From Kosakonia arachidis (GTDB taxonomy: Bacteria > Pseudomonadota > Gammaproteobacteria > Enterobacterales > Enterobacteriaceae): a stretch of DNA of 64,000 bases. A program made the translations under genes and the position numbers. The first letter of the stretch is position 1, and every line of letters starts with the position of its first letter. The stretch spans positions 468,824 through 532,823 of the forward strand of contig NZ_FPAU01000004.1 of the NCBI RefSeq assembly GCF_900116535.1, read 5' to 3'. Under the pieces are notes generated by a model. It had not been told where the DNA came from and did no database searches. It worked only from the letters and a program-made list of their open reading frames with translations. Shown piece after piece: positions 1-55,937 of the stretch.

Positions 1-105
1 GAAGTATCGAACATGTCGCGCGCGCAGATCCTGCAGCAGGCGGGTTCTTCCGTACTGGCTCAGGCCAACCAGGTTCCGCAGACCATGCTGTCCCTGCTGC
101 GTTAA
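1..105 (+). CDS. fliC: Flagellin, C-terminal end only (partial)
   Basis: Only the last 34 codons are present; the gene begins upstream of the window. The reading frame ends in the typical flagellin D0 C-terminal helix (SRAQILQQAGSSVLAQANQ, finishing in MLSLLR), which forms the inner core of the filament with the N-terminal helix. It is followed directly by a strong terminator. In E. coli the next gene on this side is fliA; here about 11 kb of sugar-modification genes intervene, so the flagellin itself is a plausible substrate of those enzymes. The variable central domain, where glycosylation would occur, lies outside the window. Confidence 0.93.
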   Translation, partial: EVSNMSRAQILQQAGSSVLAQANQVPQTMLSLLR

Positions 106-288: not shown

Positions 289-3200
289 ATGCGAAGCATA
301 TTAATCAGCGTTGATAAATTTGATGCTTTTACGCCCCATACCAATGAATTGCTCGATATTGCCGATGTGCTGCTGGCACAGAACTGGCGGGTGGATGTCA
401 TCACCAGTGAAGCAGGAAAGGTACTGAGCGCGGAGATCGAGCGCCTGAAGGCGACAGGACGCTTTGCGCTGGTGACCGACAAGCAGGGTGAGCCGGACAC
501 ACAATATGATGTTATCTGGATCTATCGCGGTTTCTTCAGCGAGAAACTACTCGATGCGATCGCCGCTGAACGTCTCAGCGGCGCGATGATTTTCCGCCAT
601 TTCAACGACTATAACGATCTCTACATTCCCTGGGGCGTGGCGCTGGAAAATCAGTTCGCAGCGCTGACGCTCGATCTCTCGCCGCGGACTTCCGCGCTTC
701 TGCTGCAAACCGGAGTGGAAAGCACTCAACTTAAAAACCTGGGGTGGAAGGTTCCGGGGCGTTTCAGCCAGTATGTGCGCACCCGCGAATCGTCGATGCT
801 GGCGCGTGCGGTCTATATTGCGCCGAAAATGTCGGCGGAGATGTATGAAGTGCAGCAGCGTGCGCTCGAAGCCGGCGTTCAGATAGACTGGCTGGATCTT
901 AACCAGCAAGCGCAGCGCATCGATCCGGCCTGGCTTGAACACTATGACGTTGTGATCGGCAATGACGACAGCGTGGCAAAAGCGCTGACGCTGGGTATTC
1001 CGCTATTCCTGGTAAACGAGGGCTATGTTGAAGGCTATCTGAACGACGCTAACATTGCTCGTCATGAAGTTGAGCATTTCTGTGCGTTGTCGTTGCGCAA
1101 CTGCCCGGATGCCGATGAGTGGGTTGAGATGCTACGAAGCGGCTTCGCCAGCGCACTGGCGTGGACTCAGGCACAGCGTGCGGATTTGGCAGCGAAATGG
1201 TCGCTGGAGACTGCGCTGGATGCCATCGTGAATGTGCCCCTGGTGGCGAAGACGCGCCAACTGGATGAAAAATCCCGCTATGCACTCAACTTTCACAGTA
1301 AAGCGGTTTTGGCACAGCAGCAAACCTCCGACTACTCCTTCAGCCGCTGGCTGGATGATCGCCAGATCAGCGAAGCGCGGCGGGAAGCATTGCTCACATT
1401 TGCCCGCGCGTATCCCGATAAAGCCAGCATTGGCGTGATTATCCTGGGTGACAATCAGGGCAGCGCGCGCACACGTGCATCGGTGGAAAGCCAGTCGCTG
1501 GCGGCTGTCAGTATTGATGTGATTGCCGAGGATGCCGCGTGGCCTGCGGCGGCAAATGCGCTGCTGAACGCGCGCAGTGCCGAAGCTATGTTGCTGATCC
1601 CCGCTGGTTTCACGCTGCGTGATGACGCGCTGCTACGTTTTGCAGAGCAACGTATGAACCAGCAGAATGCCGGGTTGTTTTACTGTGATGAGATGACGCG
1701 GGCAGAAAACGGCGAACCGTTATTGACACTGCGTCCGGGCGTCAATATCGATCTGTTGCGCGGTGTGCCTTATATCGGGCAGACGGTACTTTTTTCGCGG
1801 GAAAGGGCTTTGCAGGTTGGGGGATTCAGCGGTCATTATCCCCACGCGGCACATATCGATTTGCTGTGGCGCCTTGTCGAAGGGCAGGGCACAGGCGCAA
1901 TGGGTCGTGTGGCGGAAGTGCTGGTGGAAAACCCGCATCCAGTAGCCCACTGGAGCGAGGCCGCAGACGTGGCGGCTGAATGCGAACAGGCGCTGCTGGC
2001 GCATCTGCAACGGTTGGGTATTAACGCCACGCTGGAAGAGGGATTAACGGAGAACATTAAACGTCTGCGTTACCAGTGGGAGGCGACACCGTTAGTGTCG
2101 ATCATTATTCCGACCCGCGATCGTTTTGCGCTGCTTAAACGCTGCATTGAAAGTCTGATGGAAAAGACCCGCTATCAGCGCTATGAGTTGCTGATCGTTG
2201 ATAACCAGTCGGTGGAGGAAGACGCCTGCCGTTTCCTCAACGATCTGGCGGAGTTGGGGCTCGATCAGGTGCGTATTATGCGTTATGACGCGCCCTTTAA
2301 CTTCGCCGAAATTAATAATGCTGCCGCGCAACAAGCGCGTGGCGATGTGCTGGTGTTCCTCAATAATGACTGCGAAATCATCGACGGTAACTGGCTAGAT
2401 GCACTGCTTGAACACACGTTGCGTCCGGAAGTAGGGCTAGTGGGCGCGCGGCTGGAGTATCAGGACGGCCGTATTCAACATGGCGGCTATTTAGTTGGCG
2501 TGCAGCACGGTGTTGATGTCGCCTTCGATGGTGCTGACGGGCAGAGCAATGGTTTCCAGTACTTTCTGAAAACGCCTCGTAATCTGGCCGCCGTGAGCGC
2601 CTCCTGCATGATGGTGCGTAAAGAGGTTTTCTTCTCCTTAAACGGCTTTACCCAGGAGCGTTATCCCCTCTATTTCGCCGATGTGGATCTGGGGTTGCGC
2701 GCCCAGCAGCAAGGATATCTCAATGTCTGGACGCCTTATGCCCGCGTGAAACATATGGGCGGCGCGACGCGTTTATTCGGCAACAAAATTGGCGTGCAGG
2801 AGCGCCCGTTGCTGCAGGACTATACGACGCTGCGCGGTGAGTGGCAGCAGGGATTACTGAATGAACCTTCGTACCATCCCCTGATGCAGAAGATGGGTAC
2901 GGCCTTCACGTTGAGCGCAAGTATTGCGCGCTTGCATCAGCCGCTGCCAGGCCGCCCACTGCCAGTGGTGTTAGCCCACCACATCAACTGGGTCGGTGGC
3001 GGTCATCACCGGGTGATGCAACCATTCAAAGCGCTGGAGCGCCATCTTATGATCGAAGGCGGGCTGACAAACACCATTCCAGGCCTGATGGAAGCGGCGC
3101 AAATGCGGCCGGATGTGATTCTGCTTGAGCTGATCACCGGCAGCCGCTTCCCGGATATCATGAAGCAGCTACGCGATGTCAGTGGCGCGAAAATCGTACT

Positions 3201-3939
3201 GGAATATGATGATTACCTGCTTAACGTGCCGATGAAAAATGGTAACCGTCAGCACTTCCCACCACAGATGCTGAAAAACTTCCGCAAAGTGATGGACAGT
3301 GCCGACTGGGTAGTCGTTTCTACAGCGCAGCTGGCCGAAGCCTACAGCCGTTTCCACAGCGATATTCGCATTGCGCAAAACCGGTTGGCACCGAATCAGT
3401 GGGATCACCTACTCAGCGCCCGCGGAACCGGAAAAAAAGTGCGTGTCGGTTGGGCTGGAGGCAGTTCGCATACCGGCGATCTGGAGATCCTGTTGCCGCT
3501 GATCAAAGAGCTGGAAGGGCAGGTGGAGTGGGTGTTTATGGGCATGAAGCCACGCAACGTGCTTTGCGAATTCCACCCCGGCGTACCGTTTGAAATGTAC
3601 CCGGAGAAACTGGCGAGTCTGAATCTGGATCTGGCGCTGGTGCCACTGGAAATCAACCAGTTTAACGAATGTAAGAGCAACCTGCGTTTGCTGGAGATTG
3701 GCACCTGCGGTGTGCCGATCATCGCCACCGACATTGATCCTTATCGCTGCAATCTGCCGGTGACGCTGGTGGCTAATCGCTTTAAAGACTGGATGAACGC
3801 AATTCAGGCATACATTCACGATCCGGCGCTGCGCGAGCGGCAGGGTGATGCGCTGCGTGCTGCTGTGCGCAGCGACTGGTATCTTCGTGATGCAGGGCTT
3901 GATGACTGGCGTCAGGGCTGGTTACCGGCCGACAAGTAG
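289..3939 (+). CDS. Large multi-domain glycosyltransferase (GT4-like / GT2 / GT4-like), putative flagellin glycosyltransferase
   Basis: This 1216-residue protein has no signal peptide or membrane segments, so it is probably cytoplasmic. Four blocks can be seen. Residues 1-330 resemble a GT-B Rossmann pair. Residues 375-590 look like a degenerate GT-A fold. Residues 600-870 are a clear GT2 domain starting PLVSIIIPTRDRF, with IVDN and an FLNND metal-site motif. Residues about 1045-1200 are GT4-like (VRVGWAGGSSHTGDLEIL, later EIGTCGVPIIATDI). The start has an SD-like GAGGAT at 278-283. It lies 184 bp downstream of fliC in the same orientation, which suggests flagellin or a flagellin-bound glycan as acceptor. 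It shares its last two domains with the large protein encoded at 4007-7567. The sugar donor cannot be deduced. Confidence 0.85.
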   Translation: MRSILISVDKFDAFTPHTNELLDIADVLLAQNWRVDVITSEAGKVLSAEIERLKATGRFALVTDKQGEPDTQYDVIWIYRGFFSEKLLDAIAAERLSGAMIFRHFNDYNDLYIPWGVALENQFAALTLDLSPRTSALLLQTGVESTQLKNLGWKVPGRFSQYVRTRESSMLARAVYIAPKMSAEMYEVQQRALEAGVQIDWLDLNQQAQRIDPAWLEHYDVVIGNDDSVAKALTLGIPLFLVNEGYVEGYLNDANIARHEVEHFCALSLRNCPDADEWVEMLRSGFASALAWTQAQRADLAAKWSLETALDAIVNVPLVAKTRQLDEKSRYALNFHSKAVLAQQQTSDYSFSRWLDDRQISEARREALLTFARAYPDKASIGVIILGDNQGSARTRASVESQSLAAVSIDVIAEDAAWPAAANALLNARSAEAMLLIPAGFTLRDDALLRFAEQRMNQQNAGLFYCDEMTRAENGEPLLTLRPGVNIDLLRGVPYIGQTVLFSRERALQVGGFSGHYPHAAHIDLLWRLVEGQGTGAMGRVAEVLVENPHPVAHWSEAADVAAECEQALLAHLQRLGINATLEEGLTENIKRLRYQWEATPLVSIIIPTRDRFALLKRCIESLMEKTRYQRYELLIVDNQSVEEDACRFLNDLAELGLDQVRIMRYDAPFNFAEINNAAAQQARGDVLVFLNNDCEIIDGNWLDALLEHTLRPEVGLVGARLEYQDGRIQHGGYLVGVQHGVDVAFDGADGQSNGFQYFLKTPRNLAAVSASCMMVRKEVFFSLNGFTQERYPLYFADVDLGLRAQQQGYLNVWTPYARVKHMGGATRLFGNKIGVQERPLLQDYTTLRGEWQQGLLNEPSYHPLMQKMGTAFTLSASIARLHQPLPGRPLPVVLAHHINWVGGGHHRVMQPFKALERHLMIEGGLTNTIPGLMEAAQMRPDVILLELITGSRFPDIMKQLRDVSGAKIVLEYDDYLLNVPMKNGNRQHFPPQMLKNFRKVMDSADWVVVSTAQLAEAYSRFHSDIRIAQNRLAPNQWDHLLSARGTGKKVRVGWAGGSSHTGDLEILLPLIKELEGQVEWVFMGMKPRNVLCEFHPGVPFEMYPEKLASLNLDLALVPLEINQFNECKSNLRLLEIGTCGVPIIATDIDPYRCNLPVTLVANRFKDWMNAIQAYIHDPALRERQGDALRAAVRSDWYLRDAGLDDWRQGWLPADK

Positions 3940-3952
3940 CTGGCAGTAAAAG

Positions 3953-3978
3953 AAAAGGCGCTGTAAAGCGCCTTTTTT
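3953..3978. terminator. Bidirectional terminator between two convergent glycosyltransferase genes
   Basis: A perfect 10-bp stem, AAAAGGCGCT pairing with AGCGCCTTTT across a GTAA loop, is flanked by A and T runs on opposite sides. It can end transcription from both converging genes. Confidence 0.9.
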
Positions 3979-4006
3979 GTTGCCATCTATTGTTGGGTGA
4001 GAAACA

Positions 4007-7000
4007 TTAATCGGGTAACCAGAGTTGCGCCTGGCGCAGCAGGCTTTCGCCGTTCCACATACCGTTTTCAAGCACGTACAGGCGCAAATTATCGCCAAGT
4101 TGTGCCGCCGCAACCGCATCGAGCAGGTGGTTTTCAATGGCTTCGCGCCAGCTTTTCGCGCGATTTTCAACGCGCGTAACGCCATCAATGTCCTGTGTGC
4201 TGATGATATCGCTGCAAATCACCGGCACGCCGCAGGCACCATATTCGAGCAGACGCACCGGGCTAAGCGCACGGTTCCACGGGGTGTCAGCCAAGGGTTC
4301 CAGGGCGAGATCGAGATTGAGGCTGGCCAGTTTTTTCGCAAAATGTTGAGGGTGAACAGGCGCATGGAATTCGCTGACCCACTCCCGAAGGGAAGGGGGA
4401 CAATAACCATAGAACACCCATTCAACCCGATCGGCTAATTGGCTGACTAACTTATGAATCAACTCCAGATCGCCGGTATTCGCCGCTGTTCCACACCAGC
4501 CGATGCGCGGCCTCTTCCCCACGCCACGCTGGCTGGATAATCCCGACCATTGTTGCGGCGAAAGTCGCGTCGGCATCACGCGGATGTCATTGTGCAACCC
4601 GGCGCACTGTTCGGCCAGTTCGTTGCTGGCGACGATCAAGCGATCCACATGCGCCACCGTACTGCGCAGCGCAGCGAAAATATCCTGCGGCAGATCGTTA
4701 CGCTCGTCGGCATTGACCGGTAAACCCGGTAACCAGCAATCCAGATCGAAGATTTTGAACACTGATTCCGCCTGTGGCAGACGGCGCAACCACTCCTGCG
4801 CGCCGTCGCTGATTTGTCGATGGACGATCAGCGCATCCGGCGCAAAGCGACTGATATCGACATAGGTGCTGGCGTGATAATTAATTTGCCCTTCGACGAC
4901 ACCCGCATTATTGAGTAATGCGAGCGGTGCATCCAGGCGCAACCGGCTGCCGGGCAGGCTTTGCAACGGAAACGCGATCAAGCGTGGCAGCGGCTTCCAG
5001 TGCATCGGCTGCCAGCTTTTATTGCTACTGGCTTCAAACTGGAATCCCGCGCCATCCAGCGAGAGATTCGGATTATAGGCCGGATCGTTGGCGATGAGTG
5101 GCATCCATTTTGCGTACATGGTGTCCTGCTCAGCCATAAAGCGCTGGCGTTTTTTCTCCTGCACGGTTTTATCCACACTGTTCTGGCTCACGCTACCTTC
5201 ATGCATAACCACGGCGTGTGGGGTCCATACAGTGAGGTAACCTGCTTCACGCACCTTCAGACACAGATCGACATCGTTATAGGAGACGGTGAAGTTCTCT
5301 TCGTCGAGCCCGCCGACCTGTTCGTAGACGGATTTGCGGATCAGCAAACATGCGGCGGTGACCACGTTGTAATTCTGGTCAGCCAGCAGACGATTCATGT
5401 AACCGGCGCGGTTGTTTTCGCTGCCGATAAAGGGGTGATCCGCCGGGCCTCGCAGCCCCAGCACCACGCCTGCATGCTGGACTTTGCCGTCGGGGTAGAG
5501 CAGCTTCGCGCCGGTGATGCCCACTTCCGGGCGTAACCCATGATTCAGCATATGATCCAGCCAGTTTTCGCTGATCACTGCCGTATCGTTATTCAGCAAT
5601 ACCAGGTATTCACCGCGCGCTTCCCGTGCGGCCATATTGTTGATAGCGGAATAGTTGAACGGATGCGGATAGCGCAACACGCGAATGCGATCAGGGTCGA
5701 TAGTCGAGATCCCATTGAGCCACTGTAACGCTTCCGGCGTCTCACTGTTATTATCAACGATCAACAGTTCATAGTTCCGGTAGCGCGTTTTCTCCAGCAG
5801 GCTGGTGACACAGGTGCTGAGAATAGTAAGCTGATCTTTGGTCGGGATGATAATCGACACCAACGGTTGTTCCTGATGATTGTAACGCAGGGCATACAGC
5901 CCAGGATGCGTTGCCACCACCGTACCCTGTGCATAGCCGCGATTGTGCAGATGTCGTGTCAAAATCGCCTGTTCTTCCGGTTGGCTGGTCTGCACTGGCG
6001 GATGACCAATCACAAACGGCTCCGGCAGGTGTCCGGCAAAGCCCATCCCTTTTTGTTCAATCAGACGAACAATAAACTCAAATTGCCAGGCCTGCGGATA
6101 AGCCGGGCTAAATCCGCCCGCAGCAAGAAGCGTTGCGCTGCGGAAAATCCAGTGGCGGGCCATCTCTGCCGGGTAGCTGAGCAGTAAATCGAGGTTGAAA
6201 TCCGGACGCATCGCAGTGGTGACGATCTCGCCATTCTGTGCGTAGAACTCATCGCCATAAATTGCATCGCAGCCGGAGGCACCATCCAGCGCCAGATCGA
6301 ACATCAGCATGCCGCTTTCAAGCAGCACTTCCCCCGCGTCAAGGAACATCACCCAGTCAGACGGCTGGCTGGCGATGTACTGATTGAGGATATCTATCTG
6401 ATTATCTTGCCGGGCGATAAGTATCTGCGCAGGGAGATCGGCACGCTGATCCGTGATGACCACCGGGTTCAGTGTCAGCCCAAACCCAGCGTAGCGTTGC
6501 AGGCTTTGCAGCGTCGCCGCGACAGCATCAGGATGATGCCCGTACTGCGAGATAAAAATGGTTAACGTTTGCTGCGTGTTGCGTGTTTGCTGGAAAGTTT
6601 CCACCAGCGGCAGGAACTGCGGTGGCAGACGGCGTTCGTCGAGCCATTTGTTGATCTTGTTGCTGTAGAACCGACGCACGGAGATTTGTAGGGAGTTATG
6701 CAACGCACGCAGCAGATTTTCCGTCTGGAAACGCTGCTCGCCGTGCATCAGCGCGACTTTGACCTTTTCATTCTCTTCTTTATTACCGCTGTACCAGCCC
6801 AGTTCTCTAACAATTTGCGGCATGCGGGTATAGGTTCGGTTAATGACGTCGCCATATTTCCCGGTATGCACAAGCTGACTACTCTGATTCTCGGAGACGC
6901 GAAAAGCCGAGAGCGTTTCAGCGACAAAAGCCAGATTGCCGAGGCGCAATAACTTCAGATACAGCGTCATATCGGTCAGGAAATAGAGGTTCTCACCAAG

Positions 7001-7567
7001 TAGGGTAAAGAGATCGTCCCCAAAGGCGATCAGATCTTCGCGATAACACAGCACGGAGCTCGGCTCACCAATAAAGTTCACCGGATGATCGGCGAAAAAC
7101 TTTACTACGTCCGGGCCATCCATAATCACATCGGCAGTAAAAGGAAAGGCGGTCGCCGTAATATCGACCAACGGAGTGCCATTTTCATCAACGCGAACAC
7201 GACGTGCGGAAGCCATGCTGTTGCCGGAGGAGGATTCCAGTGCTGCAACGAGCCGGGTGATAGCGTGTTCGAAAAGAATGTCATCATCGTAGAGAAACTT
7301 GATGTACTTACCACTGGCCTGACGCACACCGGCCAGCACATTGCCTTCTTCCCATAAACGGACGCTGTTTTTGGTGTAATAGATAGGCGTTTTAGTGGTT
7401 AATGCATAACGCTCGCAGGTGAGACGAATGGTGTCGTCGTTGCTGTCGTCATAAATAATGACTTCGCAGTTTGGCCAGCTCTGATTCAACGCACTGGCGA
7501 GCGTTGTTGCGAAGAATTCGGGCTTGTAAGTTGGGATGACGATACTCACCAAAGCGCATTCGTTCAT
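4007..7567 (-). CDS. Large multi-domain glycosyltransferase (GT2 / GT2-like / GT2 / GT4-like)
   Basis: The protein has 1186 residues from the chosen ATG at 7567. The frame stays open upstream to 7693, but those codons do not look like protein, while GT2 homology (ALVSIVIPTYKPEFF) begins within six residues of this ATG and a GGAA precedes it. The first GT2 domain (about 1-260) has IIYDDSNDD and a DDD metal motif at 94-96. A weaker GT-A-like block follows. A second full GT2 domain starts near residue 563 (PLVSIIIPTKDQ, IVDNNS, LLNNDT). A GT4-like domain fills about 1018-1186. The C-terminal half is clearly paralogous to the protein encoded at 289-3939, with shared motifs such as ASLNLDLAL and CGVP. 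It probably extends the same flagellar glycan; this is inferred from position. Confidence 0.85.
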   Translation of the reverse strand: MNECALVSIVIPTYKPEFFATTLASALNQSWPNCEVIIYDDSNDDTIRLTCERYALTTKTPIYYTKNSVRLWEEGNVLAGVRQASGKYIKFLYDDDILFEHAITRLVAALESSSGNSMASARRVRVDENGTPLVDITATAFPFTADVIMDGPDVVKFFADHPVNFIGEPSSVLCYREDLIAFGDDLFTLLGENLYFLTDMTLYLKLLRLGNLAFVAETLSAFRVSENQSSQLVHTGKYGDVINRTYTRMPQIVRELGWYSGNKEENEKVKVALMHGEQRFQTENLLRALHNSLQISVRRFYSNKINKWLDERRLPPQFLPLVETFQQTRNTQQTLTIFISQYGHHPDAVAATLQSLQRYAGFGLTLNPVVITDQRADLPAQILIARQDNQIDILNQYIASQPSDWVMFLDAGEVLLESGMLMFDLALDGASGCDAIYGDEFYAQNGEIVTTAMRPDFNLDLLLSYPAEMARHWIFRSATLLAAGGFSPAYPQAWQFEFIVRLIEQKGMGFAGHLPEPFVIGHPPVQTSQPEEQAILTRHLHNRGYAQGTVVATHPGLYALRYNHQEQPLVSIIIPTKDQLTILSTCVTSLLEKTRYRNYELLIVDNNSETPEALQWLNGISTIDPDRIRVLRYPHPFNYSAINNMAAREARGEYLVLLNNDTAVISENWLDHMLNHGLRPEVGITGAKLLYPDGKVQHAGVVLGLRGPADHPFIGSENNRAGYMNRLLADQNYNVVTAACLLIRKSVYEQVGGLDEENFTVSYNDVDLCLKVREAGYLTVWTPHAVVMHEGSVSQNSVDKTVQEKKRQRFMAEQDTMYAKWMPLIANDPAYNPNLSLDGAGFQFEASSNKSWQPMHWKPLPRLIAFPLQSLPGSRLRLDAPLALLNNAGVVEGQINYHASTYVDISRFAPDALIVHRQISDGAQEWLRRLPQAESVFKIFDLDCWLPGLPVNADERNDLPQDIFAALRSTVAHVDRLIVASNELAEQCAGLHNDIRVMPTRLSPQQWSGLSSQRGVGKRPRIGWCGTAANTGDLELIHKLVSQLADRVEWVFYGYCPPSLREWVSEFHAPVHPQHFAKKLASLNLDLALEPLADTPWNRALSPVRLLEYGACGVPVICSDIISTQDIDGVTRVENRAKSWREAIENHLLDAVAAAQLGDNLRLYVLENGMWNGESLLRQAQLWLPD

Positions 7568-7721
7568 TTTTTTTCCGTTATGCGGGCAGTAGTTTGAACG
7601 CATCAACACACGATGCGGCAACGAGGTAACGACGGCCTGGTTTCTCAGGCGTGAAATTTCACAGATTTTCTTTATCTCGGCCAATAATAGCAAAGTGAGG
7701 CAGGTGTCTTGCGGGTCTAAT

Positions 7722-7737
7722 TGGCATGGGAAATGCC
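7722..7737 (+). promoter_or_regulatory. Sigma54-like promoter or small palindrome upstream of the aminotransferase operon
   Basis: The sequence TGGCATGGGAAATGCC has GG and GC dinucleotides at the 12-bp offset of a sigma54 -24/-12 element (consensus TGGCACG-N4-TTGC) and lies 74 bp before the aminotransferase start. It also forms the inverted repeat GGCAT-N5-ATGCC, so it could instead be an operator. No enhancer-binding protein gene is nearby. This is a pattern match only. Confidence 0.3.
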
Positions 7738-7810
7738 CCTTGTTTACCCAATAGATTCACTTTGGGGCCTGTAACATCAAAGTCATCTCTGGCTTGTTCA
7801 GGTTCATTTT

Positions 7811-8965
7811 ATGGACAATAACATCTTTGTTACCAGCCCTCTGTTGCCGCCTCTGGAAGAGTTTATTCCCTATCTGGAAAAGATTTGGCAGAACCGCATC
7901 CTCACCAATGGCGGGACATTCCACCAGCAACTTGAAGACGCGCTGGCGGAATATCTGGGGGTGAAATATGTCTGTCTGTTCGCCAATGGAACACTGGCGT
8001 TGTTGACGGCACTCCAGGCGCTGCGTATTACGGGTGAGGTGATTACCACCCCTTATTCGTTTGTCGCTACCTCACATACCTTGCTGTGGAATGGCCTGAC
8101 GCCAGTTTTTGCGGATATCGACCCGTTGACCTACAACATCAACCCGGAACGTGTTGAAGAGCTGATTACGCCGCAGACGACAGCGATCATGCCGGTGCAC
8201 TGTTATGGCGTACCTTGTGACGTGGATAAGATCCAACAGGTAGCGGATGTTTACGGCTTAAAAGTGCTTTATGACGCTGCGCATGCATTCGGCGTGAAGA
8301 AAAACGGCGTCAGTATCCTGAATCACGGCGATCTTTCGGTACTCAGTTTCCATGCCACCAAAGTATTTAACACCTTCGAAGGCGGCGCGATTATCTGCCA
8401 TGACGCGCGGACGAAGCAACGCATCGACTACCTGAAAAACTTTGGTTTTGCCGGTGAAACCCGCGTGGTTGCGCCCGGCATCAACGCCAAAATGAATGAA
8501 GTGGAAGCTGCATTCGGTCTGTTGCAGTTAAAACATATTGATCAGGCACTGGCTGAAAGGCAAGCGCTGTATCAGCATTATCTCAAGCTGCTGGATGGCG
8601 TTGCAGGACTGAGCCTGCTTGACGTACCCGATGATGTGAGCTGGAACCATGCGTATTGCCCGGTGTTGATTGAGCCTGAGTTTGGCATCAGCCGTAATGC
8701 GTTATATGACGCGATGAAAAGTGAAGGCATCTTAACCCGTCGCTACTTCTACCCTTTAATTAGCTCTTTCAGTATGTATCGCGGTTTTGCAACCTCGCAA
8801 AAAGAGCATTTACCCTGTGCGAACGAGATCGCCGAGAAAGTGCTATGTCTGCCGATCTACCCGGGGCTGGAGCGGGAAGATCAGCAGCGCATTGTCGATG
8901 TTATCCGCCGTATGGCGCGCTCTGTCGCAAACAATGTCGCCATGATTTCTGCGGGGGGGCTATGA
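7811..8965 (+). CDS. DegT/DnrJ/EryC1/StrS family PLP-dependent sugar aminotransferase (VioA-like)
   Basis: This 384-residue protein belongs to the family that transfers an amino group from glutamate to a nucleotide-linked ketosugar. Visible marks are LTNGGTFHQQLE near the start, NGTLAL, TTPYSFVATSH, the D-AHAFG motif and the PLP lysine K184 in SFHATKVFNTFEGGAI. The overall pattern resembles VioA/FdtB/QdtB enzymes acting on dTDP-keto-deoxysugars, so dTDP-4-amino-4,6-dideoxyglucose is a plausible product. No dTDP-sugar dehydratase is in the window; the substrate would have to come from the housekeeping rml or rff genes. It is first in a three-gene operon and overlaps the next gene by an ATGA junction. 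Confidence 0.88.
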   Translation: MDNNIFVTSPLLPPLEEFIPYLEKIWQNRILTNGGTFHQQLEDALAEYLGVKYVCLFANGTLALLTALQALRITGEVITTPYSFVATSHTLLWNGLTPVFADIDPLTYNINPERVEELITPQTTAIMPVHCYGVPCDVDKIQQVADVYGLKVLYDAAHAFGVKKNGVSILNHGDLSVLSFHATKVFNTFEGGAIICHDARTKQRIDYLKNFGFAGETRVVAPGINAKMNEVEAAFGLLQLKHIDQALAERQALYQHYLKLLDGVAGLSLLDVPDDVSWNHAYCPVLIEPEFGISRNALYDAMKSEGILTRRYFYPLISSFSMYRGFATSQKEHLPCANEIAEKVLCLPIYPGLEREDQQRIVDVIRRMARSVANNVAMISAGGL

Positions 8966-10128
8966 GCCATCCAGCAACGGCAATGATCCTCGACGCCGGA
9001 TTTGCGTCGCTGCCTTTGCAACAGGCTGTTAAAGCGGCGGGCTTTACGACGCTGGTGTGCAGCGGCAAAGCGCAGGATGCGGGAATGAAGTTCGCCGATA
9101 TCGCGCATGTACAGAATTACGCTGACGCCGATGCAGTGCTGGCCGTGGCGCGCGAACAGAAGATTACGGCGATTTTGCCCGGTGTTACCGATGTCTCTTA
9201 TCTGACCGGTAGCCGTGTGGCGGCCGAACTCGGACTGGCCGGTTTTGATACGCCGGACGTCAGTGACACGCTGTTTCTTAAAGATCGTTTCCGCGCCTGG
9301 GCAGAGCTGAAAGGCTATCCGATTCCGCGTGCGGTTAACGAACTGAAAGCGGCGTGTGATTTGCCTTTTCCGTTACTGGTTAAGCCCATTGATGCCTATA
9401 GCGGGATCGGTATTACGCTGGTGCGCGAGCCGGGCGCATTGCCGCAGGCGGTTGAACTGGCACGCGGCGCTTCCCGTAATGGCCACTGCGTCATCGAAAC
9501 TTTCTGCGAAGGTGCGTTATACAGCCATTCGGCATTTATTCGCGGCGGTGAGATTGTCTGTGAATTTTTCGTCGATGAATATTGCACTGTTTATCCCTGG
9601 CAGGTGAACAGCAGTAGCCTGAGCCTGACGCTAGCTGAAGCGATGCGCGATCGCGTCAGCGAATGCATGCAGACGCTGGTGCGGGAACTGCAACTCGTTG
9701 ATGGCTTACTGCATACCCAGTTTATCGCCAACGAGCATGATTTTTGGCTGATTGAGTTAACCCGGCGTTGCCCGGGCGATCTCTATTCGCGTCTGATTGA
9801 ATTGTCTACCGGCGAAGCCTATTCCATCGGCTTTGTCGCACCCTTTATTGGCCGCGAATCCGCATTCAGCGCGCGTCGTCCCGCGCATCAGCGAGCCATC
9901 GCCCGGCATACTATTTCCAGCAATGCTGAAAGTCACTTTGTTGGTTATTGCTTTGCCCCGCTGGCGGCGCGAATTATTGAGACTATCCCGTTGAAGTTAC
10001 CTGGTGATCCTCTGTTGCCCGCGCCGCGGGACAGGGCGGGGTTGGTTTTTGCCGAGTTTGAGAATTTCGCCGAACTCGCGCGATTGACACCACAGCTCAA
10101 AAACTATTTTTCTTTTAAAACGATTTAA
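8962..10128 (+). CDS. ATP-grasp family ligase
   Basis: The protein has 388 residues from the ATG that overlaps the aminotransferase stop as ATGA, preceded by a G-rich ribosome-binding site. The N-terminal 100 residues form a pre-ATP-grasp Rossmann-like part (MILDAGFASLPLQQAVKAAG). The ATP-binding part contains LLVKPIDAYSGIGITLV and the metal-binding end FWLIELTRRCPGDLYSRLI. ATP-grasp enzymes join a carboxylate to an amine or similar nucleophile through an acyl phosphate. Between an aminosugar-forming transaminase and an oxidoreductase, the simplest reading is that it acylates the sugar amine with an amino acid or other acid. The substrate is inference; the fold assignment is secure. Confidence 0.85.
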   Translation: MSHPATAMILDAGFASLPLQQAVKAAGFTTLVCSGKAQDAGMKFADIAHVQNYADADAVLAVAREQKITAILPGVTDVSYLTGSRVAAELGLAGFDTPDVSDTLFLKDRFRAWAELKGYPIPRAVNELKAACDLPFPLLVKPIDAYSGIGITLVREPGALPQAVELARGASRNGHCVIETFCEGALYSHSAFIRGGEIVCEFFVDEYCTVYPWQVNSSSLSLTLAEAMRDRVSECMQTLVRELQLVDGLLHTQFIANEHDFWLIELTRRCPGDLYSRLIELSTGEAYSIGFVAPFIGRESAFSARRPAHQRAIARHTISSNAESHFVGYCFAPLAARIIETIPLKLPGDPLLPAPRDRAGLVFAEFENFAELARLTPQLKNYFSFKTI

Positions 10129-10138
10129 GGACTGGATT

Positions 10139-11248
10139 ATGGCCAAGCCTTTGCGCCTTGCATTCATCGGTGGCGGTATCAATTCCGCCATCGGCATGAC
10201 ACATAAAATCGCCAGCCAGATGGACGGGCACTTCCAGTTGACGGCGGGCTGTTTCAGCCGAGATGAAAGCATCAATCAGCAAACCGGAGCAGCCTGGGGG
10301 CTGGAGAAGCGCGCGATTTATCAGGATGCGCTCTTGATGCTGGAAAAAGAGCATCAGCGTCTTGATGCGGTGGCGGTGTTGACGCCGACGCCTGCGCACC
10401 GCGACATTTTACTGGCTTGCCTGGAGTACCCGTTGCCGATCATCTGCGAGAAGGCGATGGTGGCAACGGTAGGTGATGCGCAAGAGATTCAGCAGCGGGT
10501 TGATGAGGTTAACAGCCCGCTGTATGTGACGTTCAACTATACCGGTTATCCGATGGTACGCGAACTACGCCAGCGCCTGCTGAGCGGCGGGCTTGGGCGA
10601 GTTCAGCAGGTAATGGTCGAAATGCCGCAGGAAGGTTTTAGCCGCTGCCGTAATGATGGCAACGTGACCTTACCGCAACTCTGGCGTCGAGTGGACGGAG
10701 AAATCCCAACGGTATCGCTGGACCTCGGCGTTCATGTGCACCAGTTGGTGGAGTTTCTCACCGACAAACAGGCGTTGGATGTTTACGCCGTTAACAGCAC
10801 ATTTGCGCGAGTGCCGAACGTGGTGGACACCGTCAATATCGTCTCACGTTATACCGACGATATGGTGTGTAACTACTGGTACGGTAAAGCCGCGCTCGGT
10901 TTCCGCAACGGTTTGCGGATCCGCATTTATGGTACAGAAGGCAGCGCCGAATGGTTGCAGATGGAGCCGGAGTATCTGCGCATTGCTGATATTCATGGCA
11001 ACGTGCGTATTGTCGATCGTACAGCGGGTGACAACACCATCGCCAATTTGGATCGTTACTGTCGCTTTAAAGCCGGTCATCCGGCAGGTTTTATTGAAGC
11101 TTTTGCCAACTACTACTGCGATATCGCTGCAGCTTTGCGTGGCGAAGCAAACAGCTATGCAATTGGTTCTGCCACCGCATTGCAGGGATTGTCATTCCTG
11201 GAAAGCGCGAACAGAAGTGCGATTGCGCAGCAAAAAATAGTGCTGTGA
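10139..11248 (+). CDS. Gfo/Idh/MocA family NAD(P)-dependent oxidoreductase
   Basis: This 369-residue protein has an N-terminal Rossmann domain beginning LRLAFIGGGINSAIG, followed by AVLTPTPAHRDI and ICEKAM, which corresponds to the family's EKP motif with alanine instead of proline. The C-terminal half has the family's substrate-binding sheet (SLDLGVHVHQLVEFL). Members oxidise or reduce sugars, often nucleotide sugars, with NAD(P). It follows the ATP-grasp gene by 10 bp with an AAGGA ribosome-binding site and is the last gene of the operon. It may provide or modify the ketosugar or acyl part of the presumed flagellar glycan; the exact substrate is unknown. Confidence 0.86.
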   Translation: MAKPLRLAFIGGGINSAIGMTHKIASQMDGHFQLTAGCFSRDESINQQTGAAWGLEKRAIYQDALLMLEKEHQRLDAVAVLTPTPAHRDILLACLEYPLPIICEKAMVATVGDAQEIQQRVDEVNSPLYVTFNYTGYPMVRELRQRLLSGGLGRVQQVMVEMPQEGFSRCRNDGNVTLPQLWRRVDGEIPTVSLDLGVHVHQLVEFLTDKQALDVYAVNSTFARVPNVVDTVNIVSRYTDDMVCNYWYGKAALGFRNGLRIRIYGTEGSAEWLQMEPEYLRIADIHGNVRIVDRTAGDNTIANLDRYCRFKAGHPAGFIEAFANYYCDIAAALRGEANSYAIGSATALQGLSFLESANRSAIAQQKIVL

Positions 11249-11967
11249 TTGGCCTTTTAACGTCACCCTGAAATTGCTTTTGTTTATGTAAAATTGGCAA
11301 AAGTGATTTAGATATTATGAATGAAATAGAGTGAATGAGCGTCCGCGTACGGATGAAGACCTGCGGGTTATTTAGCACAATAAGCGGAGATATTTTTGTC
11401 CCGTAAAGCGAGACGGTTGCTTATGAAGCAATAACGGTGAAACCGTGTCCTGAAGGTTATACGGTTTATGTTCATAATATCATCAAGTTAGACCGCGTGA
11501 CGCAAAGATATTTGCCTGAGAATTACATTCTGCTTGTTTGATATGTCTGCATCAAATTAGATGCGCGGGCAGGACAATTGGATAAAGTATTTTGCAGGTT
11601 GGATGCGAATTGATTGATAGAAATACCGTTACGCTTTATGACGGGGAATTATGCCAGAAAAACAAACTGCAGCCAATCTGATGAAGCATCGGTTGATTAT
11701 TTTGTCGATGCTGGTGAGACGTTTCTGATGACACTAGAGAGCAATATGTTAAAAACACAGCGAAAATTTAGGTCATTAGGGCGTAGGCCAAGGATTTCGT
11801 CGGGTGTGCAAACTATCGGCGTAAATCACAAAAGTAAAAACCGAGCGCGATGTTTCAATTTATCTACAATATTTCAGATGATTATCGATTTTACCTGCGC
11901 GGACATCATCCGGCGCTGGCTTTCGAGCTAGTATTATATGCATTGCCGTCGAAACGTGTGGTGTTAT
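11249..11967. other. Gene-poor, AT-rich stretch between the sugar-modification operon and fliA
   Basis: About 720 bp carry no convincing full gene. An open frame of 105 codons at 11614-11931 has poor protein character and no ribosome-binding site. A 39-codon frame, 11850-11969, reads like real protein (SDDYRFYLRGHHPALAFELV) and may be the end of a lost gene. The base composition is clearly lower in G+C than the flanking genes. It is best read as scar tissue left by insertion or loss of genes between fliC and fliA. Confidence 0.5.
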
Positions 11968-12069: not shown

Positions 12070-12789
12070 GTGAATTCACTCTATACCGCTGAAGGTGTAA
12101 TGGATAAACACTCGCTGTGGCAGCGTTATGTACCTCTTGTGCGTCACGAAGCATTGCGCCTCCAGGTGCGATTGCCGGCGAGTGTGGAACTGGACGACCT
12201 GCTACAGGCGGGCGGTATCGGTCTACTGAATGCTGTAGACCGATACGACGCTCTGCAAGGAACGGCATTTACCACTTACGCAGTGCAGCGTATTCGTGGG
12301 GCGATGCTGGACGAATTGCGCAGCCGCGATTGGGTGCCGCGCAGCGTCCGGCGTAATGCCCGCGAAGTGGCGCAAGCCATGGGGCAACTGGAGCAAGAAC
12401 TGGGGCGTAACGCGACGGAAACAGAAGTATCGCAACGCCTTGGGATTCCTGTTGAGGAATACCGTCAGATGCTGCTCGATACCAACAATAGCCAGCTTTT
12501 TTCCTATGATGAATGGCGGGAAGAGCACGGTGACAGTATCGAGCTGGTAACTGACGATCACCAACAGGAAAACCCGTTATTCCAGCTAATGGAAAGTAAT
12601 TTGCGTCACCGGGTGATGGAAGCTATTGAATCTCTCCCGGAGCGTGAACAACTTGTCCTGACGCTGTACTACCAGGAAGAGCTTAATCTCAAAGAGATTG
12701 GCGCTGTTCTTGAAGTAGGAGAATCGCGGGTGAGCCAGCTCCATAGTCAGGCTATTAAGCGCTTACGTACCAAGCTGGGTAAGTTATAG
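12070..12789 (+). CDS. fliA: Flagellar sigma factor sigma28 (FliA)
   Basis: This 239-residue protein has the same length as E. coli FliA. It directs RNA polymerase to class 3 flagellar promoters such as that of tar in this window and is held inactive by FlgM until the hook is finished. Sigma region 2 (about residues 15-90, with VELDDLLQAGGIGLL and FTTYAVQRIRGAMLDELR), region 3 and region 4 with its helix-turn-helix (LKEIGAVLEVGESRVSQL) are all visible. The GTG start matches the E. coli gene, where the same 5' coding sequence occurs. fliZ follows by 62 bp. Confidence 0.97.
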   Translation: MNSLYTAEGVMDKHSLWQRYVPLVRHEALRLQVRLPASVELDDLLQAGGIGLLNAVDRYDALQGTAFTTYAVQRIRGAMLDELRSRDWVPRSVRRNAREVAQAMGQLEQELGRNATETEVSQRLGIPVEEYRQMLLDTNNSQLFSYDEWREEHGDSIELVTDDHQQENPLFQLMESNLRHRVMEAIESLPEREQLVLTLYYQEELNLKEIGAVLEVGESRVSQLHSQAIKRLRTKLGKL

Positions 12790-12851: not shown

Positions 12852-13403
12852 ATGACGGTGCAGCAACCTAAAAGACGGCCTCTAAGCCGCTACCTTAAAG
12901 ACTTTAAACACAGCCAGACGCATTGCGCTCATTGCCATAAGTTGCTCGACCGTATCACTCTGGTCCGTCGGGGCGAAATCGTAAACAAGATTGCGATTTC
13001 CCGGCTGGATATGCTGTTGGATGAAGCGGCCTGGCAACAAGAGCAAAAAGAGTGGGTTGCACTCTGTCGTTTCTGCGGGGATTTGCACTGCAAAGAGCAG
13101 AGCGATTTCTTCGATATCATCGGGTTCAAACAATATCTCTTCGAACAGACTGAGATGAGTCACGGTACGGTGCGCGAGTATGTTGTCCGTCTGCGCCGGC
13201 TTGGCAATCATCTGAGCGAGTTAAACATCTCCCGTGATTTGCTAAATGAAGGGTTCCTCGACGAAAACCTGGAGCCATGGTTGCCCACGACCAGCACTAA
13301 TAACTATCGGATTGCTTTGCGCAAATATGCTCAGTTTAAGACGCAGATGCGTTTTACGCCGCTGCAAAAAATGGCCGTTGGCGCGAGATCTGATATATAT
13401 TAA
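12852..13403 (+). CDS. fliZ: Flagellar regulator FliZ
   Basis: This 183-residue protein has the usual length for FliZ. In E. coli FliZ binds sigmaS-type promoters and represses them, which favours motility over curli and stationary-phase genes; in Salmonella it raises FlhDC activity. The N-terminus is rich in paired cysteines and histidines (HCAHCHKLL, CRFCGDLHC), and the middle carries the DNA-binding helix that resembles a phage integrase core-binding domain (EMSHGTVREYVVRLRRLG). An SD-like AGGAG precedes the ATG. It is expected to be co-transcribed with fliA. Confidence 0.96.
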   Translation: MTVQQPKRRPLSRYLKDFKHSQTHCAHCHKLLDRITLVRRGEIVNKIAISRLDMLLDEAAWQQEQKEWVALCRFCGDLHCKEQSDFFDIIGFKQYLFEQTEMSHGTVREYVVRLRRLGNHLSELNISRDLLNEGFLDENLEPWLPTTSTNNYRIALRKYAQFKTQMRFTPLQKMAVGARSDIY

Positions 13404-48754: not shown

Positions 48755-49399
48755 ATGTTGCAACCTTCAATAAAACCTTCTGAAGAGCATTCGCCCAGCG
48801 ATATTATTGCCCGCATCGGTAGCCTGACGCGCATGCTGCGCGATAGTCTGCGCGAGTTAGGCCTGGATCAAGCGATTGCCGAAGCGGCGGAAGCGATTCC
48901 GGATGCGCGCGATCGACTGGATTATGTAGTTCAGATGACAGCGCAGGCCGCAGAGCGTGCGCTGAACAGCGTGGAAGCCTCTCAGCCTCACCAGGATGAG
49001 ATGGAAAAAACCTCGAAAGTGCTGAGCAAGCGCTGGGATGAGTGGTTCGAGAACCCGATTGAACTGGCTGACGCCCGTGAACTGGTGACGGATACCCGTA
49101 AGTTTCTCGGTGAAATTCCTGGCCATACCAGCTTCACCAATGCTCAGTTGCTGGACATCATGATGGCGCAGGATTTCCAGGATCTTACCGGTCAGGTGAT
49201 CAAGCGCATGATGGACGTAATCCAGGAGATCGAGCGCCAGCTGCTGATGGTGCTGCTGGAAAACATCCCGGATCAGTCTGCGCGCCCGAAACGCGAAAAC
49301 GAAAGCCTGCTCAATGGTCCTCAGCTCGACGCCACCAAAGCGGGCGTGGTGGCAAGCCAGGATCAGGTGGACGACTTGCTGGACAGCCTCGGTTTCTGA
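48755..49399 (+). CDS. cheZ: CheY-P phosphatase CheZ
   Basis: The ATG at 48755 gives 214 residues as in E. coli; the frame is open upstream into cheY but only this ATG follows GAGGA at a proper distance. The long four-helix bundle holds the catalytic segment [17 protein letters not shown], and the C-terminal [16 protein letters not shown] binds CheY. Confidence 0.97.
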
Positions 49400-49454
49400 T
49401 TTGTCGGCACATTTCCCTTCAGACAGCTGGAAGGGGAAGTCAGTACACCAGAGA

Positions 49455-49481
49455 AAAGGGAGGGGAAACCTTCCCTTTTTT
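49455..49481. terminator. Bidirectional terminator between cheZ and the CPBP gene
   Basis: AAAAGGGAGG pairs with CCTTCCCTTTT with a one-base bulge, flanked by A and T runs on both sides. It closes the chemotaxis operon and the convergent gene. Confidence 0.8.
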
Positions 49482-50130
49482 ATTGCAGAAAGATATCGCC
49501 CACCGCGAAGAGATTCGACAGTGCATGTAGCACTATCGGTATCAAAAGTCCGCCTGTGCCGAGTCGAACGACACATAATAGCGCAGAAAAAATAAACAAC
49601 TGTATAAAAGTGATCGGTGCCTGATATTGCATATGAATGGCGGCAAACAATAAAGACGTGATCACAATACCGACGTGCCGTGGCACTTTTTCCCATCCCA
49701 GGCTGGCATTGAGCAAAAAGCCGCGAAAAACAATCTCTTCACTCACCGGAGCTATCAGACAGGCCGTGAATATCCACGCCCAACGGGTTAACCCTGTATA
49801 CCCTTTCAGCGTGTCCAGCCACGGCTCAGGCTGCTGGAATAGCTTTTCCATTACCAGCATCGCCACCAGCGCCAGCAACGGTGCAGCAAGGTTTCGCCAC
49901 GCCAGCGTACCGAAAGGCAGTTGCCCGTCATAGTGACGTCCGTAATAACGCCACAGCAACAGTGAGCAGGGGAGCAATAGTGCACCATGCAGAAACGGGC
50001 CGTCGAGGCCATTTTGATGAAGACGAATAAAACCCGGAATGAAAATAGCGAAATAGAACAGGCTGTAATAGATAACAAACGCTGCGATACACACAGCAGT
50101 ATGCGATGTCCGGTCCGATTGTGGTGGCAT
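49480..50130 (-). CDS. CPBP family intramembrane metalloprotease
   Basis: This 216-residue membrane protein has about six hydrophobic helices and the three CPBP/Abi motifs: SEEIVFRGFLL (EExxxR), FAAIHMQY and VLHALSNLF. Related proteins are Rce1-like CAAX proteases; in bacteria some give bacteriocin immunity or process peptides, but most have no known substrate. No clear ribosome-binding site precedes the ATG. It is inserted, in opposite orientation, between cheZ and flhB, which are neighbours in E. coli. Confidence 0.85.
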   Translation of the reverse strand: MPPQSDRTSHTAVCIAAFVIYYSLFYFAIFIPGFIRLHQNGLDGPFLHGALLLPCSLLLWRYYGRHYDGQLPFGTLAWRNLAAPLLALVAMLVMEKLFQQPEPWLDTLKGYTGLTRWAWIFTACLIAPVSEEIVFRGFLLNASLGWEKVPRHVGIVITSLLFAAIHMQYQAPITFIQLFIFSALLCVVRLGTGGLLIPIVLHALSNLFAVGDIFLQ

Positions 50131-50416
50131 AAAAAAGTGACGTCCCTGCAGGATTATACTCGAAGCCGATTATTATAAAGGAGATTGCCTGCAATTCTGT
50201 TCAGTCGTTAACAATCGGAACCGGGGGACAAAAAATGGCGTTTAGGCAGAATTTTTCATGTCACATTGCCGTTTTACCCTCGTTTCGGGCGTATGGATGA
50301 CCCCTGAAGGGCAATTCAAATGGCGAAAACCCCCTGTTTTTATGCCTTACTCTTCCCATTAGATACCCTTGACTCTGGCAATATGTTGTCAAATCCGTAA
50401 TCCGTGGATGCAGGCC

Positions 50417-51568
50417 GTGGCCTCTGAAGACAACGAAGACAAAACAGAAGCCCCCACAGCGCACCGACTAGAAAAGGCGCGCGAAGAAGGGCAAGTCCCC
50501 CGATCAAAAGAGTTGACATCACTGTTGGTGATGTTGGTGGGTGTTTGCATTCTGTGGTTTGGCGGCGAGGTGTTTGGTCGACGGTTATCGATGGCGCTCT
50601 CTTCCGGGCTGCGCTTCGATCATAAAATCATCAACGATCCGGCGCTGTTTGTTGGTCAGGTTATCATGATGCTGAAAACGGCACTGCTGGGAATGCTGCC
50701 TCTATTGACTGGTGTGGTCATTATCGCGCTCGTTGCGCCAGTAATGTTGGGTGGTCTGGTTTTTAGCACCAAGTCACTGGAGTTTAATTTTTCCAAGCTC
50801 AATCCTCTGAGCGGTCTTGGGCGGCTATTTTCTTCCCAGGTGGGTGCTGAACTGTTCAAAGCGTTAATGAAAGCTTTGCTGATGGGCAGCGTCGCCGGGA
50901 CCTTCGTCTGGCATCACTGGCCGGATATGATGCGCATGATGAGCGAATCGCCGTTAACGGCCATGGCCAGCGCCCTTAATCTGGCCGGGCTCTGTGCGCT
51001 TCTGGTGTCGCTGAGCATCATACCGATGGTCGGTTTCGATGTTTTCTGGCAGATATACAGCCATTTGAAAAAATTGCGCATGTCGCGCCAGGACATCCGT
51101 GACGAATTTAAGCAGAGCGAAGGCGACCCGCATATCAAAAGTCGCATCCGCCAGATGCAGCGTGCCGCCGCTCGCCGCCGGATGATGGCCGATGTACCGA
51201 AAGCCGATGTCATTGTCACCAACCCGACGCACTATGCTGTCGCGCTGCAATATGACGAAAATAAAATGAGCGCGCCGAAAGTGGTGGCGAAAGGCTCCGG
51301 TCTGGTAGCACTGCGTATTCGCGAGTTGGGTACAGAAAATCGCGTGCCGATTCTGGAAGCACCACCACTGGCGCGTGCGCTTTTCCGCCATGCGGAAATT
51401 GGACAGCAGATCCCGGGCCAGCTTTATGCCGCGGTAGCCGAAGTGCTGGCGTGGGTATGGCAGTTGAAACGCTGGCGGCTGTCAGGCGGACAACGACCTG
51501 TTAAACCTGAGAATCTTCCGGTGCCTGAAGCGCTGGATTTTATGAACGAGAAGGACACTGATGGCTAA
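50417..51568 (+). CDS. flhB: Flagellar export apparatus protein FlhB
   Basis: The GTG at 50417 gives 383 residues, one more than E. coli, and aligns ASEDNEDKTEAP with its start; open codons upstream to 50369 are not used. Four membrane helices are followed by a cytoplasmic domain with the self-cleaving NPTH (IVTNPTHYAVAL), which switches export from hook to filament proteins. It overlaps flhA by 8 bp. Confidence 0.96.
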   Translation: MASEDNEDKTEAPTAHRLEKAREEGQVPRSKELTSLLVMLVGVCILWFGGEVFGRRLSMALSSGLRFDHKIINDPALFVGQVIMMLKTALLGMLPLLTGVVIIALVAPVMLGGLVFSTKSLEFNFSKLNPLSGLGRLFSSQVGAELFKALMKALLMGSVAGTFVWHHWPDMMRMMSESPLTAMASALNLAGLCALLVSLSIIPMVGFDVFWQIYSHLKKLRMSRQDIRDEFKQSEGDPHIKSRIRQMQRAAARRRMMADVPKADVIVTNPTHYAVALQYDENKMSAPKVVAKGSGLVALRIRELGTENRVPILEAPPLARALFRHAEIGQQIPGQLYAAVAEVLAWVWQLKRWRLSGGQRPVKPENLPVPEALDFMNEKDTDG

Positions 51569-54049: not shown

Positions 54050-54100
54050 CTGCTTTGCTGGCAATAAACTCAATCGCTTAGCTGTTTGTTTTCGCCTTCG

Positions 54101-54125
54101 ATCCCGCCATCAGCGCGGGATTTTG
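54101..54125 (+). terminator. Terminator after flhE
   Basis: ATCCCGC pairs with GCGGGAT over a 7-nt loop and is followed by TTTT. It closes the flhBAE operon. Confidence 0.75.
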
Positions 54126-54163
54126 CTATCTGCCACTCATTTTTGACCATGCCTTTTGAAGAA

Positions 54164-55927: not shown

Positions 55928-55937
55928 GGTTAAGAAT

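Follow-up and report, generated by a model that had tools for sequence, protein, structure and literature searches.

A 64,000-nucleotide stretch of the Kosakonia arachidis genome (contig NZ_FPAU01000004.1, positions 468,824 to 532,823; termed the window) carries, between the flagellin gene fliC and the sigma-28 gene fliA, a sugar-modification island of five intact genes followed by the remains of a sixth. The five encode two large glycosyltransferases (GT_A and GT_B), an aminotransferase (AT), an ATP-grasp protein (ATPG) and a Gfo/Idh/MocA oxidoreductase (GFO). On balance, we favor the reading that this island makes a viosamine-type (4-amino-4,6-dideoxyglucose, Qui4N) glycan and attaches it to the adjacent flagellin. 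Flagellin glycosylation by the island is highly probable and a viosamine-type sugar is likely; N-acylation of that sugar by an ATP-grasp enzyme, suggested by a structural model, is slightly favored. An initial annotation had recognized five genes between fliC and fliA and named their families, with which reading frames and family scans agree, but its gene count was incomplete, as it missed a decayed FkbM-family methyltransferase gene at 11249-11966 (plus strand).

The slot itself is a published hot spot. Islands were found there in 307 of 2,000 surveyed genomes and fell into 42 types, and all 11 Kosakonia strains were positive, with five types (De Maayer and Cowan, 2016; PMC4875605; this and the other papers cited are represented by the portions of their text available to us). 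The flagellin glycosylation islands (FGIs) of that survey occupy the same slot and are described with GT2 glycosyltransferases, DegT aminotransferases and FkbM methyltransferases. The window island is likewise an insert between fliC and fliA with glycosyltransferase and sugar-biosynthesis genes inside, and it may be one of the 42 published types. Published FGIs average 5.2% below their genome in G+C content, whereas the five window genes together (54.4%) stand above the window mean of 52.0%; a low G+C content that might point to recent transfer is not seen in the five genes together, and the decayed stretch has 40.8%. In the available main text of the survey, ATP-grasp, VioA, Gfo, oxidoreductase and carbamoyl are all unmentioned (PMC4875605). 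As the initial annotation had said, glycosylation islands beside flagellin genes are already known; the possible advance lies in the function and the exchange of the ATPG-GFO block.

Enzymes of the island and the glycan they would build

GT_A (289-3939, plus strand) is a reading frame of 1216 amino acids with a GT2 domain at residues 604-781, and GT_B (4007-7693, minus strand) is a protein of about 1190-1228 amino acids with two GT2 stretches, the family being identified in both by Pfam and NCBIfam scans; a weak, sub-threshold group-1 match lies near the C-terminus of GT_B. We compared the island across 15 Kosakonia genomes (G000 to G014, G000 being the source of the window). GT_A is 96% identical in G003, G004 and G007 (K. 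oryziphila REICA_142). The start of GT_B is unsure: the 1228-residue form begins at TTG, and the match spans residues 1-1228 in three sister species and runs from residue 41 in G007. AT (7811-8965, plus strand; 384 amino acids) belongs to the DegT/DnrJ/EryC1 family (PF01041, E=1.6e-100) and is assigned as a VioA/DesI-type sugar 4-aminotransferase by family scan and solved relatives, the best of which is DesI (2PO3; 232 bits vs 181 for the next). The E. coli vioA gene has 66% DNA identity over 59% of the AT gene; matches occur in 170 of 5426 E. coli genomes, and among those listed 12 of 12 are annotated vioA.

ATPG (8962-10128, plus strand; 388 amino acids, with a longer frame from 8845 also listed by the open reading frame call) matches Pfam ATP-grasp_4 below threshold (E=2.6e-4, 21.1 bits vs a cut-off of 27), and its family assignment therefore comes from comparison of the predicted fold, which settles this match. 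The model (mean predicted local distance difference test score, pLDDT, 92.7) has an ATP-grasp fold over the whole protein. Closest by Z among the matches listed is the L-amino-acid ligase 3VOT (Z 35.3, root-mean-square deviation (rmsd) 3.2, 378 residues aligned), followed by PurT 1EYZ (Z 33.6, rmsd 3.1, 367 aligned) and 4DIM (Z 33.2); 1EYZ, 4DIM and other PurT entries lie within 1 Z of each other, and the Foldseek E-value ranks 4DIM first. The L-amino-acid ligases BL00235 (3VOT), YwfE/BacD (3WNZ, 3VMM) and RizA (4WD3), together with PurT (1EYZ), share the fold across the whole predicted ATPG but are only 11-17% identical to it (50 matches listed). These Foldseek and VIA-align results are fold matches only, and families outside the lists remain possible. 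We take 3VOT and 1EYZ to be ligases that use an acyl phosphate to couple carboxylates with amines. Residues K141, Q253, E265 and R268 are among those invariant in 38 of 38 ATPG sequences, positions that presumably bind ATP and metal in the ATP-grasp superfamily. On its model, ATPG thus looks like a carboxylate-amine ligase.

GFO (10139-11248, plus strand; 369 amino acids) was assigned by family scan and conserved residues. It has the NAD-binding Rossmann and C-terminal domains, the E-K motif and the D...H pair, the last two of which we take to be the functional residues of the Gfo/Idh/MocA family; all 37 sequences of the alignment share E104, K105, D195 and H199. The nearest matches to its model (mean pLDDT 92.1) are 3V5N, 3DTY and the inositol dehydrogenase homologue 7D5N, at 26-28% identity.

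From these assignments we infer the chemical steps and the attachment to flagellin. RmlA and RmlB, encoded outside the island, would provide deoxythymidine diphosphate (dTDP)-4-keto-6-deoxyglucose; rmlB and rmlD lie elsewhere on the island's contig (rmlA was not searched for), and their products would give this intermediate (and rhamnose). AT would transaminate it to dTDP-viosamine. ATPG would turn a carboxylic acid, perhaps an amino acid, into an acyl phosphate and link it to the 4-amino group, and GFO would carry out an NAD(P)-dependent oxidation or reduction on the acyl group or the sugar. FkbM would originally have O-methylated the sugar, a step presumably lost in a common ancestor with three sister species. 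GT_A and GT_B would assemble the flagellin glycan, one starting at Ser/Thr and one adding the acylated viosamine. The island is not the self-contained set that the initial annotation described, given that the rml genes lie elsewhere and the methyltransferase is lost.

It is also conceivable, if rather improbable, that ATPG makes a separate small amide or dipeptide which GFO reduces and which is attached afterwards, with no sugar acylation. Dipeptide ligases are indeed among the nearest folds of ATPG, and b-type Pseudomonas aeruginosa flagellin has a modified amino acid joined to its core sugar via phosphate (PMC11833859), but neither a nucleotidyltransferase nor a phosphatase that could serve this attachment is seen among the five island proteins. 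A link to the b-type cluster was rejected, as the PA1088-PA1090 steps (methylthreonine-phosphate) described in the available text mismatch the enzymes here (PMC11833859).

The proposed N-acylated viosamine has a counterpart in print. The P. syringae island consists of vioA, vioM, vioT, vioS, vioB, vioR and acp, and VioA, VioT (1,173 amino acids), VioM and a proposed acyl carrier protein (ACP) acylation route lead to an N-(3-hydroxybutanoyl), 2-O-methyl viosamine that tips a rhamnose chain on flagellin (PMC3927599). Compared by description and not by sequence, the two islands would follow the same logic, with a VioA-type aminotransferase, a transferase of about 1,200 residues, a methyltransferase, an N-acyl group involving a redox step and flagellin as target, the last two being predicted for the window island. 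They differ in that acylation in P. syringae is proposed to proceed by ACP, synthase, reductase and VioB, whereas the window island has an ATP-grasp ligase and a Gfo/Idh/MocA oxidoreductase, and in that the P. syringae island sits between glutamine synthase and histidine kinase genes (PMC3927599). Among the window island genes there are no ACP acylation genes of the vioS, vioB, vioR or acp type. In Shewanella oneidensis, deletion of sfmABCDE shifts flagellin mass, and this flagellin-modification operon likewise encodes SfmE, a member of ATP-grasp_4, and the methyltransferase SfmD (PMC3765264). Its sugar is, unlike here, a putative nonulosonic acid, VioA and Gfo/Idh/MocA proteins are undescribed in the part of that paper available, and SfmE is likened to ATPG by family description (PMC3765264). 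In the open-licence PMC literature we found no paper on ATP-grasp together with viosamine or on this island's enzyme combination, which is not to claim that none is in print.

Linkage and spread of the ATPG-GFO pair

When 84,980 species genomes were scanned with ATPG patterns, we identified 37 loci that encode an ATPG relative (33-97%), near relatives such as 8 Rhizobium and 4 Pantoea rows among them. In 36 of the 37, a GFO gene follows that of ATPG on the same strand, at 90 bases or less in 35; it is 1.2 kb off in one locus (L089) and was not found in another (L087). ATPG and GFO are a two-gene module across several phyla, with hosts in Enterobacterales, Rhizobium, Colwellia, Methylococcaceae, Campylobacterota, Omnitrophota, Gracilibacteria and Prochlorococcus. 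Of the 37 loci, 23 have a match to AT of at least 40%, 11 have weaker ones only and three have none; an FkbM match, decayed copies counted, is present in 21. At the search sensitivity used, ATPG-GFO DNA had no match in 5,426 E. coli genomes. Plasmids searched for ATPG gave 29 records, four covering at least 80%, which were not used further.

This linkage bears on the role of GFO. WlbA/WlbC and GnnA/GnnB are oxidation/transamination pairs, and AT and GFO could form another, with GFO yielding a 3-keto nucleotide sugar, AT a 3-amino sugar and the ATP-grasp enzyme acting later. GFO and AT are co-encoded, and QdtB and WbpE, presumably C3 aminotransferases, are among AT's DegT relatives. However, the stable partnership is ATPG-GFO and not AT-GFO, AT is nearest to DesI and E. 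coli vioA, and close AT relatives stand beside an ACP module in genomes that lack such a GFO (see below). We consider such a pair unlikely and retain N-acylation of a viosamine-type sugar.

The flagellar setting of the pair is confined to part of its range. fliA is in the flank of 12 of the 37 loci, which are all 12 of the Enterobacterales ones, and a flagellin match is present in 3 of the 25 others. The reading of the initial annotation as a flagellin glycosylation island gains from this recurrence and from the published hot spot (PMC4875605). Its further claim that the system is dedicated to the filament applies to most Enterobacterales islands and fails for the enzymes as such, which occur without a flagellin match in, for example, Rhizobium and Prochlorococcus; one Prochlorococcus locus has a sugar-nucleotide gene (PF16363 dehydratase) near the pair, and one Rhizobium locus a dTDP-sugar 3,5-epimerase and a PF16363 dehydratase. 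In genome G206, an AT/FkbM/GFO/ATPG cassette (L069, 837-6593) occupies a non-flagellar enterobacterial site beside a U32 peptidase gene.

These last loci would fit an island that serves lipopolysaccharide, capsule or another envelope glycan and that came to lie beside fliC by chance insertion at a hot spot, which unrelated cargo also enters (PMC4875605). Nevertheless, the island genes include no polymerase or flippase, a glycosyltransferase of similar size acts on P. syringae flagellin (PMC3927599), and the fliC/fliA co-location recurs in several genera. We regard an envelope role as very unlikely, and flagellin as the probable target.

Two further kinds of protein were observed in related islands. 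A protein of about 810 amino acids lies beside GFO in two flagellin islands (L071, 16119-18557; L070, 474-2906; copies 92% identical), and the L071 copy has GT2 and radical-SAM domains; to our knowledge, a radical-SAM enzyme in such a flagellin island is unusual. Flagellin islands of two genera (L068, 9656-11050; L073, 1118-2611) encode proteins of 464-497 amino acids without a Pfam match, with a mutual identity of 34%.

Exchange of island content across Kosakonia

We next consider the same slot across the 15 Kosakonia genomes. AT-ATPG-GFO adjoins fliA in 8, and a chance arrangement is therefore no concern. The full five-gene block, whose synteny the initial annotation had proposed to check, is present in four of these (G000, G003, G004 and G007); the contig of G009 (K. 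sacchari SP1) ends before GT_A, and a different protein occupies the GT_B place in G005, G008 (K. quasisacchari WCHEs120001) and G012. Some sequences are truncated: those of G007, G008 and G009 break off close to GT_A or GT_B, and G013 and G014 offer about 6 kb beside fliA before their contigs end. The protein in the GT_B place of three Kosakonia (L032, 7161-10604; L033, 7017-10457; L034, 3989-7438) has about 1147 amino acids and is 23-24% identical to GT_B; the copy scanned (L033, G012) matched no Pfam family.

In three other genomes (G001, G006 and G011), AT is accompanied by an acyl-carrier-protein module that replaces ATPG-GFO, and AT is 77-79% identical between the two island types. The G006 module comprises LuxC, LuxE, an AMP-forming ligase, two transketolase halves, two FabG-like reductases, an 80-residue ACP and a PglD-like hexapeptide transferase; all members were found by tblastn in G001 and G011, G001 with one FabG place. 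The genomes of G001, G006 and G011 have no GFO of this kind, and ten sister-island proteins (the acylation module and one further methyltransferase) have no match in the window at E 1e-6. G006 and G011 retain both transferases, GT_A at 82% and 76% and GT_B at 66% and 68%, respectively; G001 has one large glycosyltransferase, 39% identical to GT_B. Elsewhere, the slot holds a single GT41 protein (G010) or a 1223-residue glycosyltransferase-like protein beside fliA (G002, G013 and G014); about 20 kb examined in G002 contained no flagellin match.

In a tree of 30 hand-chosen ATs (27 of them for a nearby ATPG, L087 being without GFO, and those of L071 and L085 being identical), the three ACP-linked ATs form one group (97/99) nested within the ATPG-linked ATs; the forks that place it are moderately supported (91/92, 84/84), and the root is at the midpoint. 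In an evenly drawn sample of 295 genomes, a subset of the family, ATPG occurs in 8, AT in 48 (E<=1e-110) and LuxE in 11 (E<=1e-60); by the coordinates listed, AT is no more than 10 kb from ATPG in 8 of 8 genomes and from LuxE in 9 of 11. In seven of the eight ATPG-bearing genomes, the stretch examined includes fliC or fliA. With ATPG in 8 of 295 genomes, the initial annotation was fair, for this family, in calling an enzyme set with ATP-grasp uncommon, but Shewanella SfmE is a precedent for an ATP-grasp protein in flagellin modification (PMC3765264). Distant GFO matches (29-32%) in G030, G033 and G042 were dropped, with no ATPG or AT match in the 18 kb examined.

We suggest that ATPG-GFO would replace the function of the ACP module of sister Kosakonia and, as proposed in print, of P. 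syringae. More tentatively, and with some doubt, ATPG-GFO might be an undescribed acyl-carrier-free N-acylation module, found in multiple phyla and exchangeable as a block with an ACP/LuxE/PglD module at the flagellin locus, such that the flagellar acyl group can differ between related bacteria whose sugar is the same and whose transferases are related, loss of FkbM having altered the glycan again in one Kosakonia clade. Flagellin glycans affect the sensing of bacteria by plants and animals. If the proposal is true, these islands are plug-in sets with a fixed aminotransferase, related transferases and a swappable acylation block, a widespread orphan ATP-grasp/oxidoreductase pair receives its first activity, and sister Kosakonia provide a test bed differing in one chemical group of the filament.

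The sixth gene also varies among these islands. The gap of 821 bases between GFO and fliA holds its remains: with a 374-residue FkbM protein of a sister island as query, tblastn gave a C-terminal match at 11838-11963 (67% over 45 residues, E=1.4e-13), the recognizable end extending over 11838-11966, and a second, weaker piece farther up in the gap. In an alignment with the intact gene of K. oryziphila, one large deletion across the methyltransferase core is common to the window, G003, G004 and G009, so that the S-adenosylmethionine-binding core is mostly missing in the window and in three sister species; the window has lost a further stretch beyond the shared deletion. FkbM is thus decayed in four of the eight Kosakonia AT-ATPG-GFO islands (G000, G003, G004 and G009) and intact in the other four (G005, G007, G008 and G012; 88-100% identical to the query), the intact relatives lying in L030, L032, L033 and L034. 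Because acyl-carrier-type islands also have a related FkbM (48% in Kosakonia G001 and 47% in another genus, L121), its presence in islands of both acylation types suggests that FkbM acts on the shared sugar and not on the acyl group.

A gene broken in half of these islands by a shared deletion might mark the whole island as a decaying, non-functional relic in which the methyltransferase was the first to go. The other five genes, however, are under purifying selection. The ratio of nonsynonymous to synonymous substitution rates (dN/dS; Nei-Gojobori method, own script, ungapped) is 0.03-0.09 for all five against G003, G004 and G007 (GT_B against G003 and G004 only), two of which carry the same broken gene, and 0.066-0.067 for GT_A. 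Against G012, dN/dS is 0.045 for AT and 0.076 for GFO, with dS near-saturated and AT lengths differing by one codon. We find a relic scarcely plausible.

Several observations weigh against a viosamine-type, N-acylated flagellin glycan made by these enzymes. AT scores 313.7 bits against the DesI equivalog TIGR04427, whose cut-off is 650, and its likeness to E. coli vioA is, by sequence, moderate. GFO is nearest, among solved structures, to inositol-dehydrogenase-like proteins, which do not indicate which step it catalyzes. AT is weak or absent in 14 of the 37 ATPG loci, and the ATPG acceptor may not always be viosamine. Pseudomonas VioA, VioT and Fgt1 are likened to the island proteins by description only. 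Among the 48 family genomes with AT, 31 have neither ATPG nor LuxE; mutual exclusion of the latter two was rejected as evidence, since the absence of shared genomes has a chance probability of 0.16 and is not significant alone. Finally, a sigma-28-like site (up to 3 mismatches) is absent from 106-288, before GT_A, and from 7694-7810, between GT_B and AT, and flagellar co-expression of the island is therefore not established; single-mismatch sites precede both fliC copies and fliD. Transcription by read-through from fliC or from another promoter is possible.

Flanks of the island and a second flagellar locus

The window opens with the 3' end of the second of two tandem fliC genes (1-105, plus strand; the last 34 codons and the stop), the remainder lying upstream. 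That upstream stretch contains, in order, fliD (minus strand), a fliC of 301 amino acids and the second fliC, which is broken by 290 N. The two copies span L006 12276-13970, and the 290-N run stops exactly at the window start; four sister stretches (L028, L031, L032 and L033) have at least three tandem flagellin genes each. On the right, the island is bordered by fliA (12070-12789, plus strand), followed by fliZ (12852-13403, plus strand), both identified by family scan.

Within the island, GT_A and GT_B are convergent, and GT_B is divergent from AT-ATPG-GFO. The ATG of ATPG overlaps the AT stop and GFO begins 10 bases after ATPG, and AT, ATPG and GFO therefore look like a single transcription unit. 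A terminator-like stem-loop (3953-3976; a mere pattern match, listed for the minus strand) lies between the convergent GT_A and GT_B, and is the only one noted of 21 terminator-like sites, against a shuffled mean of 16.1. A generic promoter scan gave 6 sites, against 11.5 in shuffles, and was not used as evidence.

A second flagellar locus with a putative glycosylation set just past flhC lies on contig C12 of the same genome (about 48,900-60,000; L119 14389-19901 and L120 1-5504). Its flagellin and FliA are 58% and 53% identical to the first-locus copies. The set comprises a protein of 798 residues that includes a HAD-like stretch, an open frame of 1176 codons 40% identical to GT_B over 790 residues, a VioA-like AT (64%), a methyltransferase-like protein (below cut-offs) and, from a different subfamily, a 372-residue ATP-grasp-like protein that is 25% identical to ATPG over 118 residues and matches Pfam ATP-grasp_3 below the cut-off. 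By sequence likeness, this set repeats the grouping of a VioA-like AT with putative ATP-grasp, methyltransferase and large glycosyltransferase proteins at a flagellar locus. The C12 locus appears to be flag-3b, which a 2020 survey found in 15 of 24 Kosakonia; in the available text of that survey, only Erwinia flag-3a carries flagellin-modification genes among flag-3 loci (PMC7526173).

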